Below are positions 5,426 to 29,713 of a stretch of 64,000 nucleotides of DNA, in pieces; position 1 is the first letter of the stretch; every line of letters begins with the position of its first letter. The notes under the pieces were generated by a model, which was not told the DNA's origin, made no database searches, and saw only the letters and a program-made list of their open reading frames with translations. A program made the translations under genes and the position numbers. The stretch is from Rhodocyclaceae bacterium. GTDB taxonomy: Bacteria > Pseudomonadota > Gammaproteobacteria > Burkholderiales > Rhodocyclaceae. The stretch is from NCBI GenBank assembly GCA_019455325.1, contig JACFMQ010000003.1, forward strand, positions 310,001 through 374,000. The letters run 5' to 3'.

Positions 5426-5471
5426 TGCGACTGTTGTCGCAGGTTGCGCCATTCGTCTTAAAAGGTAATAT
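5426..5471 (+). promoter_or_regulatory. Operator and sigma-70-like promoter of the first activator gene
   Basis: A near-perfect dyad TGCGACT-GT-TGTCGCA lies at 5426-5441, the same motif found upstream of the catabolic sigma-54 promoters. Immediately after it TTGCGC (5444-5449) and TAATAT (5466-5471), 16 bp apart, resemble -35 and -10 boxes. A strong GGAGGAGA ribosome site precedes the ATG at 5524. The arrangement suggests autoregulation. The rest of 5236-5523 shows no gene. Confidence 0.5.
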
Positions 5472-5523
5472 TGCATCGTGACATCGATTAAGCATTCATA
5501 AATATATAAACGGAGGAGACAAA

Positions 5524-7518
5524 ATGTCCTTAGGCACCGCATTGGCAAGTACGACCGCCGCCTGGCACCAGTTTGTGGATCGAGGCCAGGTTGACGAGAC
5601 GGTGGTGCGTGCGGAGGTGTCGCAGTCATGGCGGCGGTGCCGCAAGCTCGGCATCGACCCGTGCGCGCCGAAGCTGCCGGTCACCCTCGACGCCCGGCAG
5701 CTCTCGGCCGTCCGCGACGAGAACCGGGTCTTCACCGAGACGGCCCTGCCCTTCATGCAGTTCCTCAAGACCGCCGTCAAGGGCACCGGCTTCATCCTCG
5801 TCCTCACCGAGCGCAGCGGCGTCGTCCTCGACGTCTTCGGCGACGACGAGATCCTCGCCATGGCCCGCGAGAACAACTACGTCGCCGGCTGCTCCCGGGC
5901 CGAGGAGGTCGCCGGCACCAACGCCATCAGCCTGGCCCTGATCGAGAAACGCCCGGTGCAGCTCACCGGCGCCGAGCACTGGAACGTCCGCCACCACCGC
6001 TGGACCTGCGCCTCGGCCCCGGTCTTCTCGCCCGAGGGTATGGTCCTCGGTACCGTCACCCTCTCCGGCGAAACGACCAAGGCGCACCGCCACACCCTCG
6101 GCATGGTCATCTCCGCCGCCGAGGCCATCCGCAACCGCCTGCACGAGCGCGAGGTCATCCGCGAGAAGCAGGGCGTCGACACCCTGCTCTCCTCGGTGCT
6201 CGCCAGCATCTCGGACGCGATCATCGCCATCGACGAGGCCGGCCTGGTCACGACCATCAACCCGGCCGCCTGCAGCGTGCTCGGCGTCAGTCCGGAGCGC
6301 GCCCTGGGCAAGACCCTCCTCCGCCTCTTCCCGGCGCACCCGGAGCTTTCCAACATGCTGCCGCTCGGCCGGGACTGCGCCTCGTTCGAGGTCACGGCCG
6401 AGCGGCCGAACGGCCGCGCGCACTTCGTCATCACGCCCTACGTCATGCAGGCCGACGACCGGGAGAAGGGGGCGATCCTGGCGCTCCGGGAGCGGCGGGA
6501 GTTCGTCAACGAGGTGCGCGAGTTCTCGGGCTTCAACGCCGTCTTCAACTTCGAGGACATCATCGGCGAATCGCCGGCGCTGCTGCGCCAGATCGAGATC
6601 GCCCGGGTGGCCGCCCGGCAGACCGCGCGGATCCTGATCCTGGGCGAGACGGGGACGGGCAAGGAGATGTTCGCGCAGTCGATCCACACCTGTTCGCTGC
6701 GCCGCTCGGGGCCGTTCGTGGCGCTCAACTGCGCGGCGATTCCGCGCGAGCTGATGGAGTCGGAGATCTTCGGCTATCGGGGCGGGGCGTTCACCGGGTC
6801 GCGCAAGACCGGGCAGATCGGCAAGCTCGAACTGGCCGACGGCGGCACGCTGTTTCTCGACGAGATCAACCAGATGCCTTTGGACCTGCAGGCGAAGCTG
6901 CTGCGGGCGCTGCAGGAGGGGACGATCACGCGGCTCGGGGACACCAAGCCGATCCGGGTCGATGTGCGGGTGATCGCCGCGGCGAACGAGGACCTGTACG
7001 CGAAGAGCCGGTCCGGGGAGTTCCGCCAGGATCTCTATTTCCGGTTGAGCGTGGTCGAGCTGAGCCTGCCGCCGCTGCGCGAGCGGACGGAGGACATTCC
7101 GCGCATCGCCGGGCAGTTGCTCGGGCGGCTGGCCACGAAGATGGGGCTGCGCGCCCTGTCGCTGTCGCCGGCGGCGGTCGCCGGTCTGTGCGAGTATCCG
7201 TGGCCGGGCAACGTGCGCGAGCTGGAGAACGTTCTCGAGATGGGCGCCATCATGGCCGAGGGTGGGATCATCGAACCCCATCACCTCGCTCATCGCATGC
7301 GCAACAGCGAGGCCGCGCCCGTCGTGCAGCAGGCGCCCGCGGCCGTGCTGGGCGCGAACCAGTCGGTGCGCGACGTCGAAATAGAGCTGATCCGGAACGC
7401 GATCCAGGAGTTCAACGGCAACGTCGGCCTGGTCGGCAAGAAGCTGGGATTGTCGCGGGCCACGGTCTATCGGCGGATGCAGCAGTACGGCATCGTCAAA
7501 TCCGTGACGGTTCGCTGA
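5524..7518 (+). CDS. AcoR-type sigma-54 enhancer-binding activator, copy A
   Basis: The protein is 664 residues. An N-terminal AcoR-like segment (SQSWRRCRKLGIDP) and GAF-like sensor cover about 1-205. A PAS domain lies at about 215-330 (SDAIIAIDEAGLVTTINPAA). The AAA+ domain at about 345-585 has Walker A GETGTGKE and Walker B GGTLFLDE. A Fis-type HTH occupies about 620-660 (LGLSRATVYRRMQQYGIVKS). The sigma-54 contact loop reads GAFTGS instead of GAFTGA. Residues 14-596 are shared with copy B at 16310-18289; only the first 13 residues and about 65 at the end differ. It sits directly upstream of, and in line with, the operon starting at 7726. Its effector is probably an aromatic compound or quinone (inference). 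Confidence 0.93.
   Translation: MSLGTALASTTAAWHQFVDRGQVDETVVRAEVSQSWRRCRKLGIDPCAPKLPVTLDARQLSAVRDENRVFTETALPFMQFLKTAVKGTGFILVLTERSGVVLDVFGDDEILAMARENNYVAGCSRAEEVAGTNAISLALIEKRPVQLTGAEHWNVRHHRWTCASAPVFSPEGMVLGTVTLSGETTKAHRHTLGMVISAAEAIRNRLHEREVIREKQGVDTLLSSVLASISDAIIAIDEAGLVTTINPAACSVLGVSPERALGKTLLRLFPAHPELSNMLPLGRDCASFEVTAERPNGRAHFVITPYVMQADDREKGAILALRERREFVNEVREFSGFNAVFNFEDIIGESPALLRQIEIARVAARQTARILILGETGTGKEMFAQSIHTCSLRRSGPFVALNCAAIPRELMESEIFGYRGGAFTGSRKTGQIGKLELADGGTLFLDEINQMPLDLQAKLLRALQEGTITRLGDTKPIRVDVRVIAAANEDLYAKSRSGEFRQDLYFRLSVVELSLPPLRERTEDIPRIAGQLLGRLATKMGLRALSLSPAAVAGLCEYPWPGNVRELENVLEMGAIMAEGGIIEPHHLAHRMRNSEAAPVVQQAPAAVLGANQSVRDVEIELIRNAIQEFNGNVGLVGKKLGLSRATVYRRMQQYGIVKSVTVR
5556..7311 (+). 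repeat. 1756-bp inverted repeat, left copy
   Basis: This block matches 16499-18254 in inverted orientation with no length difference. Translations of the core in several frames, including non-coding frames of 96, 185 and about 500 codons, are identical, so core identity is essentially complete. A few mismatches cluster in the first about 150 bp and the last about 130 bp. The pattern fits recent gene conversion or a recent duplication. Confidence 0.95.
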
Positions 7519-7520
7519 CA

Positions 7521-7568
7521 GCGTCGCACGTTGCGACGCCTGTCCGAGCCGTGATACGCGCGTATCAC
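7521..7568 (+). promoter_or_regulatory. Upstream activator sites for the nine-gene operon
   Basis: Three elements lie 65-115 bp upstream of the sigma-54 promoter: a perfect dyad GCGTCGCA-CGT-TGCGACGC (7521-7539), an overlapping TGCGACG-CC-TGTCCGA match to the regulon motif (7533-7548), and the 18-bp palindrome GTGATACGCGCGTATCAC (7551-7568). Distance and symmetry suit enhancer-binding protein sites. Confidence 0.6.
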
Positions 7569-7633
7569 CTCCGGCGCCTTCGAGGCGCCCACCTATCCTT
7601 TATTAATCAGCCTGTTGCAGCCACCGCTGCGGC

Positions 7634-7650
7634 TTGGCACATCGCTTGCG
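7634..7650 (+). promoter_or_regulatory. Sigma-54 promoter of the nine-gene operon
   Basis: TTGGCAC-ATCGC-TTGCG has the invariant GG and GC exactly ten bases apart and matches the TGGCAC-N5-TTGC consensus in full. It lies about 75 bp upstream of the first gene. Confidence 0.85.
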
Positions 7651-28566: not shown

Positions 28567-29463
28567 ATGAAAAAAAGGCTTCTAGCCTTGCTGCTGGGTG
28601 GAGTCGTGGCTTCGTCGTCGGTCTTCGCCAAGGAAGGTGGCGATCAATATCCGAATGGCGCGGAGAACTGGTTCGCAGGTGCGATACCGCCTCCGGGCAA
28701 TTACTTCATCAACTACTTCGGCAACTGGTCGGGCACCATGCGCGACGGCAGCGGCAACAAGGTCCGCCCCGCCGGGAAGGACGTCAAGCTCAACGCGACC
28801 TTCAATGCCCTGCGCTTCCTCAAGGCGACCGAGACCCAGATTCTCGGCGCCAACTACAGTTGGGCCGTGCTCGTGCCGATCGTGCGTCTGTCGGTCGAGA
28901 CACCGGCCGGGAAAGCGAGCCGGACCGGGATCGGCGATGCGACACTGACGCCGCTGATTCTTTCCTGGCATTCGCCGGAGTGGCACTACCTGCTGGGCCT
29001 GGACATCAACCTGCCGACGGGCGCGTACGACAAGAACGACCACCCGGGCAAGAACCTCGGCGAAAACTACTACAGCTTCGAGCCGGTCTTCGCCGCCACC
29101 TACCTGAACAGCAGCGGCTGGGAGGTGTCCGGCAAGTTCATGTACAACGTGAAGACGAAGAACAAGGACACCGACTATCGCTCGGGCGACGAGTTCCACA
29201 TGGACTACCTGGTGGGCAAGCACTTCGGCCCGTGGTCGGTCGGCGTCAGCGGCTACTACCTGAAGCAGATCACCAACGACCGGCAGAACGGCACCAAGGT
29301 CGGCTCCGACGGCAACCGCGGCCACGTGTTCGCCGCCGGCCCGTCGATCAAGTACCAGACGAAGTCGAATTCGCAGCTCATTTTCCAGTGGCATCGGGAA
29401 ACCAGTCTCGAGAATCGCTTCGGCGGCGACAAGGTGTGGTTCAAGTTCATCACGCCGCTCTGA
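28567..29463 (+). CDS. Outer-membrane channel of the phenol-degradation MetA family
   Basis: The product is 298 residues with a clear signal peptide (MKKRLLALLLGGVVASSSVFA) and then alternating beta-strands ending in a C-terminal aromatic pattern (WFKFITPL). It belongs to the MetA/SphA-type putative outer-membrane proteins found in aromatic catabolic clusters, thought to let hydrophobic substrates cross the outer membrane. AAAGGAGG precedes the ATG. It has its own sigma-54 promoter and its own terminator, so it is a single-gene unit within the regulon. Confidence 0.85.
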   Translation: MKKRLLALLLGGVVASSSVFAKEGGDQYPNGAENWFAGAIPPPGNYFINYFGNWSGTMRDGSGNKVRPAGKDVKLNATFNALRFLKATETQILGANYSWAVLVPIVRLSVETPAGKASRTGIGDATLTPLILSWHSPEWHYLLGLDINLPTGAYDKNDHPGKNLGENYYSFEPVFAATYLNSSGWEVSGKFMYNVKTKNKDTDYRSGDEFHMDYLVGKHFGPWSVGVSGYYLKQITNDRQNGTKVGSDGNRGHVFAAGPSIKYQTKSNSQLIFQWHRETSLENRFGGDKVWFKFITPL

Positions 29464-29485
29464 AGACGGATCGTCTTGCGTTCGG

Positions 29486-29511
29486 GCCGCGATTCGTTCG
29501 CGGCTTTTTTT
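29486..29511 (+). terminator. Rho-independent terminator of the channel gene
   Basis: Seven-base arms GCCGCGA / TCGCGGC with a five-base loop are followed by eight T residues, 22 bases after the stop codon. Confidence 0.9.
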
Positions 29512-29578
29512 TGCGCGTCGATGCCCGTCGGTCGCGCGCCGCGTCCCGGCCGGATGCCACGGATTTCTCAGGACGACA

Positions 29579-29602
29579 CTCAAAATGCGACAGATGTTTG
29601 AG
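29579..29602 (+). promoter_or_regulatory. Activator site upstream of the Liv-type importer
   Basis: TGCGACA-GA-TGTTTGA (29586-29601) sits inside a CTCAAA / TTTGAG inverted frame. It is about 95 bp upstream of the sigma-54 promoter and matches the element at 28364-28385. The rest of 29512-29854 shows no gene. Confidence 0.55.
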
Positions 29603-29696
29603 ACGTCACGGCAACGGCGCCGCCCCGGGTTCGTCCCGAGCGCGCGAATTCCGCGTAATCGACTGATCCGTAGCGGAAAAATCCGCGCCGCGCGGT

Positions 29697-29713
29697 TTGG
29701 CACGATCCTTGAT
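29697..29713 (+). promoter_or_regulatory. Sigma-54 promoter of the Liv-type importer operon
   Basis: TTGGCAC-GATCC-TTGAT has an exact -24 element and a TTGA -12 element. It lies about 140 bp upstream of the substrate-binding protein gene. Confidence 0.65.

Follow-up and report, generated by a model that had tools for sequence, protein, structure and literature searches.

A putative resorcinol cluster and its sigma-54 promoters

The window analysed here, a 64,000-nucleotide stretch of the genome of a Rhodocyclaceae bacterium (contig JACFMQ010000003.1, positions 310,001 to 374,000), carries a degradative gene cluster with two near-identical activators, and our subject is the enhancer through which these activators are predicted to control five sigma-54 promoters as one regulon. 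Activator A (5524..7518, +) precedes a nine-gene operon (7726..16297, +; assigned by Pfam) that encodes a flavin oxidoreductase, an M24 hydrolase, a cupin, a DoxX protein, a 3-HIBDH-like protein, an aldehyde dehydrogenase (11914-13377), and CobW, MFS and DsbA-like proteins. A reading of 11955-14405 as a single protein proved to be in the wrong frame. On the minus strand, the genes for E1, E2 and E3 (18304..23196; Pfam) form a run whose last gene is activator B (16310..18289). Divergent from E1 are the large (molybdenum) and small (4Fe-4S) subunits of a resorcinol-hydroxylase-like enzyme (23748..27686, +), and further along are a channel gene of the Phenol_MetA_deg family (28567..29463, +; Pfam) and an ATP-binding cassette importer of the branched-chain type with a binding protein, two ATPases and two permeases (29855..34710, +; Pfam). 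One importer open reading frame, 32768-33634, was assigned by alignment of orthologues and had no Pfam scan of its own. Pyrogallol hydroxytransferase is the best relative of the molybdenum enzyme with a solved structure, and a 4Fe-4S protein and a glyoxalase-family protein are also encoded near this enzyme.

We compared activator A with named genomes and found 26 loci, four at 76–77% identity and the other 22 at 34–48%. The four closest lie in Pseudothauera nasutitermitis (two), Pollutimonas bauzanensis and plasmid pLuFRes1 of Aromatoleum anaerobium, and in these three species the molybdenum enzyme is 85–87% identical. From activator A to the second permease, all 22 window genes were matched in the A. 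anaerobium stretch and all 22 in the Pseudothauera stretch, the aldehyde dehydrogenase having been queried with the mis-framed 11955-14405. The Pollutimonas stretch gave no match for the cupin, the MFS transporter or a second activator, and E3 was matched in part. An order-wide activator search at E 1e-150 returned one of 399 genomes, this one, and a family-wide search with the molybdenum enzyme gave matches in 17 of 395. Identity of at least 85% was limited in the family-wide search to this genome and two taken as Pseudothauera and A. anaerobium; the remaining matches (37–72%) were excluded from motif work. Plasmid records searched with the activator gene yielded three weak matches, none with 80% coverage. 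In Azoarcus anaerobius, RedR1 and RedR2 are reported to activate resorcinol degradation co-dependently (PMC9542535), and two other papers treat the oxidative route of resorcinol breakdown and its resorcinol hydroxylase RhL (PMC10470551, PMC10100899). Given this literature, the gene content and the orthologues in three relatives, the cluster is very probably a resorcinol cluster of another species, serving the oxidative anaerobic route.

Elements of the sigma-54 −24/−12 pattern TGGYAY-N5-TTG precede the nine-gene operon (7635..7650, +), the run from E1 to activator B (23276..23291, −), the molybdenum-enzyme unit (23642..23657, +), the channel gene (28470..28485, +) and the importer operon (29698..29713, +). 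Their number is at chance, with 21 such matches in the window versus 22.7 in shuffles. In each of the four species, elements with similar letters stand before every one of the five units or its orthologue, and this retention is the strongest support for the five predicted promoters. All five elements named in an earlier, sequence-only reading of this DNA (7635+, 23291−, 23642+, 28470+ and 29698+) are present, with their orthologous places kept in relatives. The genome also encodes RpoN, with one Sigma54_DBD match at E 3.3e-67.

An everted core shared by five promoters

The sequence-only reading had joined these promoters through an inverted dyad, TGCGACA-N2-TGTCGCA. We recovered its matches at 5426-5441 and 23369-23384 (one mismatch each) and at 28369-28384 and 29586-29601 (three each), and the one placed at 7533-7548 really lies at 7532-7547, with three mismatches. 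Dyads with up to three mismatches numbered six in the window versus 5.03 in shuffles, and those with up to two numbered 22 in the genome versus 18 for the reversed pattern; the count by itself was therefore rejected as evidence, being at chance level in both. Only two dyads in the genome have at most one mismatch, and both are within this cluster.

The signal emerged from comparing the 190 bp before each sigma-54 element across this genome, A. anaerobium, Pseudothauera and Pollutimonas, which gives 20 regions for five promoters in four species. The best kept core was everted, GTCKCA-N3-TGMGAC, with 23 mismatches over the 20 regions, whereas 300 shuffles averaged 77.7 and never fell below 68. 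A spacing scan of TCKCA-Nn-TGMGA peaked at n=3, where 18 of 20 regions matched with one mismatch allowed. When all 5-letter dyads with spacers of 0–16 were scanned de novo, TCGCA-N3-TGCGA came out on top at 14/20 (best of 40 shuffled sets, 8), and the same dyad was on top in the 15 regions of the other species (11/15). Matrices that left out one species at a time gave the assigned site the highest score in 17 of the 20 regions, a score that also exceeded the best of 100 shuffles; the matrix sites had been assigned by the same everted pattern, and three poor sites (the window's channel and two E1 sites) were omitted from training. The shared signal is thus real, and TGCGAC is common to both forms, but the symmetry first proposed was wrong, the everted form fitting 18/20 regions and the inverted form 10/20. 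Likewise, the proposed motif search at sigma-54 promoters of relatives did find a conserved signal, whose best core is everted and not inverted.

It is improbable, then, that the inverted dyad is itself a symmetric operator bound by one dimer, even though it is the best of the alternatives. In the window it comes within one mismatch at 5426 and 23369, as it does twice in the A. anaerobium cluster; the commonest inverted spacing, TGMGA-N6-TCKCA, is the one first proposed (peak of the inverted scan at n=6, 10/20 regions); and its 75 mismatches over the 20 regions lie under all 300 shuffles (mean 109.6, lowest 98). The everted form nevertheless fits more regions and heads the de novo scan (14 versus 6 of 20), and in Pollutimonas the inverted form has 4–6 mismatches at all five promoters.

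At each promoter the candidate upstream activating sequence (UAS) has its own layout. The nine-gene promoter has an exact core, GTCGCA-N3-TGCGAC, at 7523..7537 (+), and a second dyad, TGATAC-N4-GTATCA, at 7552..7567 (+), 20 bp past the first TGCGAC. The generalized second dyad, TGAKAC-N4-GTRTCA, is present at this promoter with 0–1 mismatches in all four species, and one of 16 other regions also reaches 1. The E1 site, GTCGCA-N3-TGCGAC-N4-GTCGCG in minus-strand reading (23369..23393), has an exact core. At the molybdenum-enzyme promoter the array is TGAGAT-N4-GTCGCA-N3-TGCGAC (23530..23554, +), and TGAGAY-N5-TYGCA-N3-TGCGAC is exact there in all four species at −112 or −113, with two mismatches in the best of 16 other regions. 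The earlier reading had the promoters at 23291 and 23642 served by one divergent region and missed this array; with an array of its own, the molybdenum-enzyme promoter need not depend on the site at 23369. In the channel UAS (28362..28386, +) the left half is oddly spaced while TGCGAC and TGTATGAGA are retained, and the importer UAS reads ACTCA-N3-TGCGAC-N3-TGTTTGAGA (29578..29603, +). These two sites (28369 and 29586 in the earlier numbering) had been judged poor on their right side, a view that does not hold across species, where the right half-site TGTNTGAGA is exact in 6/8 orthologous regions and within one mismatch in 7/8.

Core starts lie 101–103 bp before the sigma-54 element at the E1 (where found) and molybdenum-enzyme promoters, 108–112 bp at the nine-gene promoter and 120–123 bp at the channel and importer promoters; the window's channel core starts at 108–110 bp. 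Since these promoter-wise groups are spaced roughly one helical turn apart, the half-sites may be arrayed along one face of the helix. The RedR1/RedR2-type resorcinol regulon reportedly has a conserved UAS 103–111 bp from the transcript start; the 101–123 bp of the arrays conserved here is measured to the −24 element, not to the transcript start.

Genome-wide specificity and competing explanations

We found that the half-site combined with the sigma-54 spacing, TGMGAC-N75..105-TGGYAY-N5-TTG, has seven matches in the 4.46-Mb genome, five of which are the five promoters (reversed control, 1). Among the relatives, the pattern matched at seven places in Pseudothauera (five of them cluster promoters; reversed control, 2), at seven in Pollutimonas (three; control, 2) and at four in A. 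anaerobium (all four; control, 0). One further match in this genome, at C24:264738, overlaps the start codon of a coding frame and was taken as background. That bare counts are at chance and the pattern with sigma-54 spacing is specific suggests that position is decisive.

The exact everted core has four genomic copies, three in the window and one elsewhere, at C24:544823. This sixth site has its start 112 bp ahead of a perfect sigma-54 element, the same spacing as at the window's nine-gene promoter, and is directly preceded by a LysR-type gene. The locus (L079:6824-15759; contig C24 from about 544823) continues, about 400 bp further on, with an uptake operon for a TonB receptor, a protein that weakly matches cytochrome c and molybdopterin domains, a DUF2478 protein, a binding protein, a FecCD permease, an ATPase, a methyltransferase and a radical SAM protein. 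The binding protein matches 3psa (HI_1472, which we take to be MolA) at 2.9e-14, and another periplasmic protein, 4pag, better at 4.4e-37. This would suggest uptake of perhaps a MolABC-like molybdate/tungstate type, apt for a pathway with a molybdenum enzyme. The TonB receptor has a match in one of the three relatives (Pseudothauera, 61%, E limit 1e-80), where the everted core was not found within two mismatches in the first 1.6 kb towards the gene, and a single AT-rich sigma-54-like element has two mismatches. With a TonB homologue in one relative of three, and that one without the site, the sixth site seems special to this genome.

Ahead of activator A are three half-sites, TGCGAC-N4-GTCGCA-N3-TGCGCC (5426..5450, +), possibly for autoregulation; among the window's sigma-54-like matches we found no usable element for this site. 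In A. anaerobium a 1-mismatch dyad lies 92–107 bp ahead of the activator that has its own promoter. An everted site of Pseudothauera overlaps the −35 hexamer of a sigma-70-like promoter before the activator, which would suit autorepression. Scans of the activator gene's strand gave one such promoter in Pseudothauera and none in the window, A. anaerobium or Pollutimonas, so autorepression through a −35 overlap stays a guess.

Together, the four-species comparison and the genome-wide specificity lend good support to a single regulon in which five sigma-54 promoters share an enhancer. The arrays are arranged, conserved and specific in the genome as described above, and there is a high probability that the regulon is real. 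We read the dyads as UAS for two near-identical RedR1/RedR2-type GAF-PAS-AAA+-helix-turn-helix (HTH) activators of the anaerobic oxidative resorcinol pathway, a prediction of binding drawn from sequence that we place at roughly 86%. As part of this reading, the UAS would be an array of TGMGAC half-sites in alternating orientation round GTCKCA-N3-TGMGAC, about 101–123 bp before the −24 element. Singly or mixed, the activators would bind the arrays and loop to RpoN polymerase to open the five promoters, from which the genes for ring attack, the channel and the importer would be expressed. Activator B, as a product of the E1 promoter, would be self-amplified; the array before activator A may serve autoregulation, and the sixth promoter could add its uptake operon.

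Several observations weigh against this reading. The everted core with at most one mismatch is not enriched genome-wide (23 sites versus 31 for the reversed control), and in the window's own five regions the N3 dyad reaches 3/5, while TCGCA-N15-TGCGA and GTCGC-N5-GCGAC reach 4/5. The E1 sites are weak: in the window the place is correct with a matrix score of 9.7 versus 15.4 for the best shuffle, in Pseudothauera the best score falls elsewhere, and in Pollutimonas the score is 5.6 versus 15.6. The pattern was also framed after the regions had been inspected, and both activators have GAFTGS in the sigma-54 contact loop versus GAFTGA in five aligned relatives.

A different regulator, for example a LysR-type protein, could instead occupy the dyads while the sigma-54 activators bind elsewhere, as the LysR-type gene before the sixth site might hint. 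We consider this quite unlikely, as the sites keep a fixed distance to sigma-54 elements and co-occur with these activators in four species, and a 1-mismatch dyad lies ahead of the own-promoter activator both here and in A. anaerobium. Least probable of all is an action of the palindromes in RNA, as terminators or hairpins: the segment 7515-7570, right after the stop of activator A, does fold at −26.5 kcal/mol (z −4.1), but no T-run follows this fold around the 7523 palindrome, and the E1 and molybdenum-enzyme sites are upstream of both divergent genes, outside the predicted transcripts.

The enhancer had also been offered as a motif for the whole activator subfamily, and that claim was too wide. 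Besides A and B the genome has 16 activator-like matches, and none of the 23 sites within one mismatch of the everted core is within 10 kb of them. A motif common to the genome's AcoR-like activators was rejected on this ground, and the signal fits RedR-like orthologues only.

The activator pair, a probable inversion and known systems

The two activators, A and B, are 94% identical and both contain GAF, PAS, AAA+ and Fis-type HTH domains. Their inverted genes share 1,511 bp of exact identity (5674-7184 and 16626-18136) with diverged ends, possibly through recent gene conversion, and inversion could use this stretch as its substrate. Three species have two copies, and in these the activator cores are 100, 99.5 and 99.5% identical within the genome versus 79–89% between species, the longest exact DNA run between copies being 1,727 bp in A. 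anaerobium and 497 bp in Pseudothauera. In Pollutimonas the named-genome scan and the cluster comparison found one activator. In a tree of the activator cores the copies pair by species. In a tree of the 47-residue HTH ends (W, this genome; AA, A. anaerobium; PN, Pseudothauera; PB, Pollutimonas), class I (W_A, AA_2, PN_5, PB_1) stands apart from class II (W_B, AA_1, PN_8), a split with support of 89/88, under the program's 95/80 mark. Activator A, as placed by domain search, alignment and this tree, has the class I end and activator B the class II end.

Both this genome and Pseudothauera have the class I end on the own-promoter activator beside the nine-gene operon and the class II activator after E3. 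The class I activator of A. anaerobium instead follows E3 and leads into the nine-gene operon, and its class II end is on the far own-promoter activator. Relative to this genome, the A. anaerobium nine-gene block is inverted between the activators and the DNA-binding ends are swapped. Recombination inside the inverted activator copies explains both, and mis-assembly across such repeats may also lie behind the apparent inversion. A more speculative and rather unlikely idea is that the pair forms an invertible regulatory switch, in which recombination would turn the nine-gene operon round and exchange the DNA-binding ends, and both wirings could then coexist in a single population. Gene conversion would then keep 1.5–1.7 kb alike in this genome and A. 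anaerobium while the N-tails and HTH ends stay apart, and A. anaerobium would be the flipped form with respect to this genome and Pseudothauera. Swapped DNA-binding ends on otherwise identical activators would amount to a natural experiment on what each end contributes.

The closest known system is the RedR1/RedR2 regulon of Azoarcus (Aromatoleum) anaerobius LuFRes1, which has orthologous enzymes (molybdenum enzyme 85% identical), two near-identical activators and sigma-54 elements at the same five units, among them the molybdenum enzyme and the E1-E2-E3 set. It differs in that its activators are 76% identical to those here, its cluster order is inverted with swapped HTH ends, and its cluster is on a plasmid, whereas the present one is on the chromosome or a large contig. 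The sixth candidate site also has no counterpart among the A. anaerobium pattern matches. Pacheco-Sanchez et al. reportedly found in 2017 that three sigma-54 promoters of A. anaerobius have conserved sequences upstream, so the core idea is not new; the pathway, the activator pair and enhancers at three promoters have reportedly been described already in A. anaerobium. This enhancer was not found in the literature searched, which did not reach the key papers of 2007, 2017 and 2022. What we add is the array architecture, two transport promoters kept in four species, an uptake operon as a candidate member, and the inversion together with its exchanged HTH ends. A two-activator system known from work on one organism gains a specific, testable enhancer code, and the regulon likely widens to substrate uptake and perhaps to uptake of the metal needed by the key enzyme.

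Among other regulators, the regulons of enhancer-binding proteins with a Fis-type HTH and a palindromic UAS described in PMC6615313 are alike in having the UAS about 100 bp before sigma-54 promoters; that paper gives sites of the TGT-N10..12-ACA type in fifteen of its groups, unlike the TGMGAC half-site array here. DhaR-type regulators (NCBIfam NF008485) are the best NCBIfam match of activator A, which at 384 bits is under the cut-off of 551, and they have other target genes.

A second molybdenum enzyme on contig C3 (L080:1175-9886) is 72% identical to RhL and has E1-, E2- and E3-like genes of its own; contig C3 has zero matches to the half-site and sigma-54 pattern. The binding-protein match of the A. 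anaerobium importer (L066:3796-6628) is split into two pieces about 1.5 kb apart, as if interrupted. Adjoining the window's importer is a chemotaxis receptor (35143-36882); Pseudothauera has a 73% homologue of it, flanked by the second activator on one side and the nine-gene block on the other.

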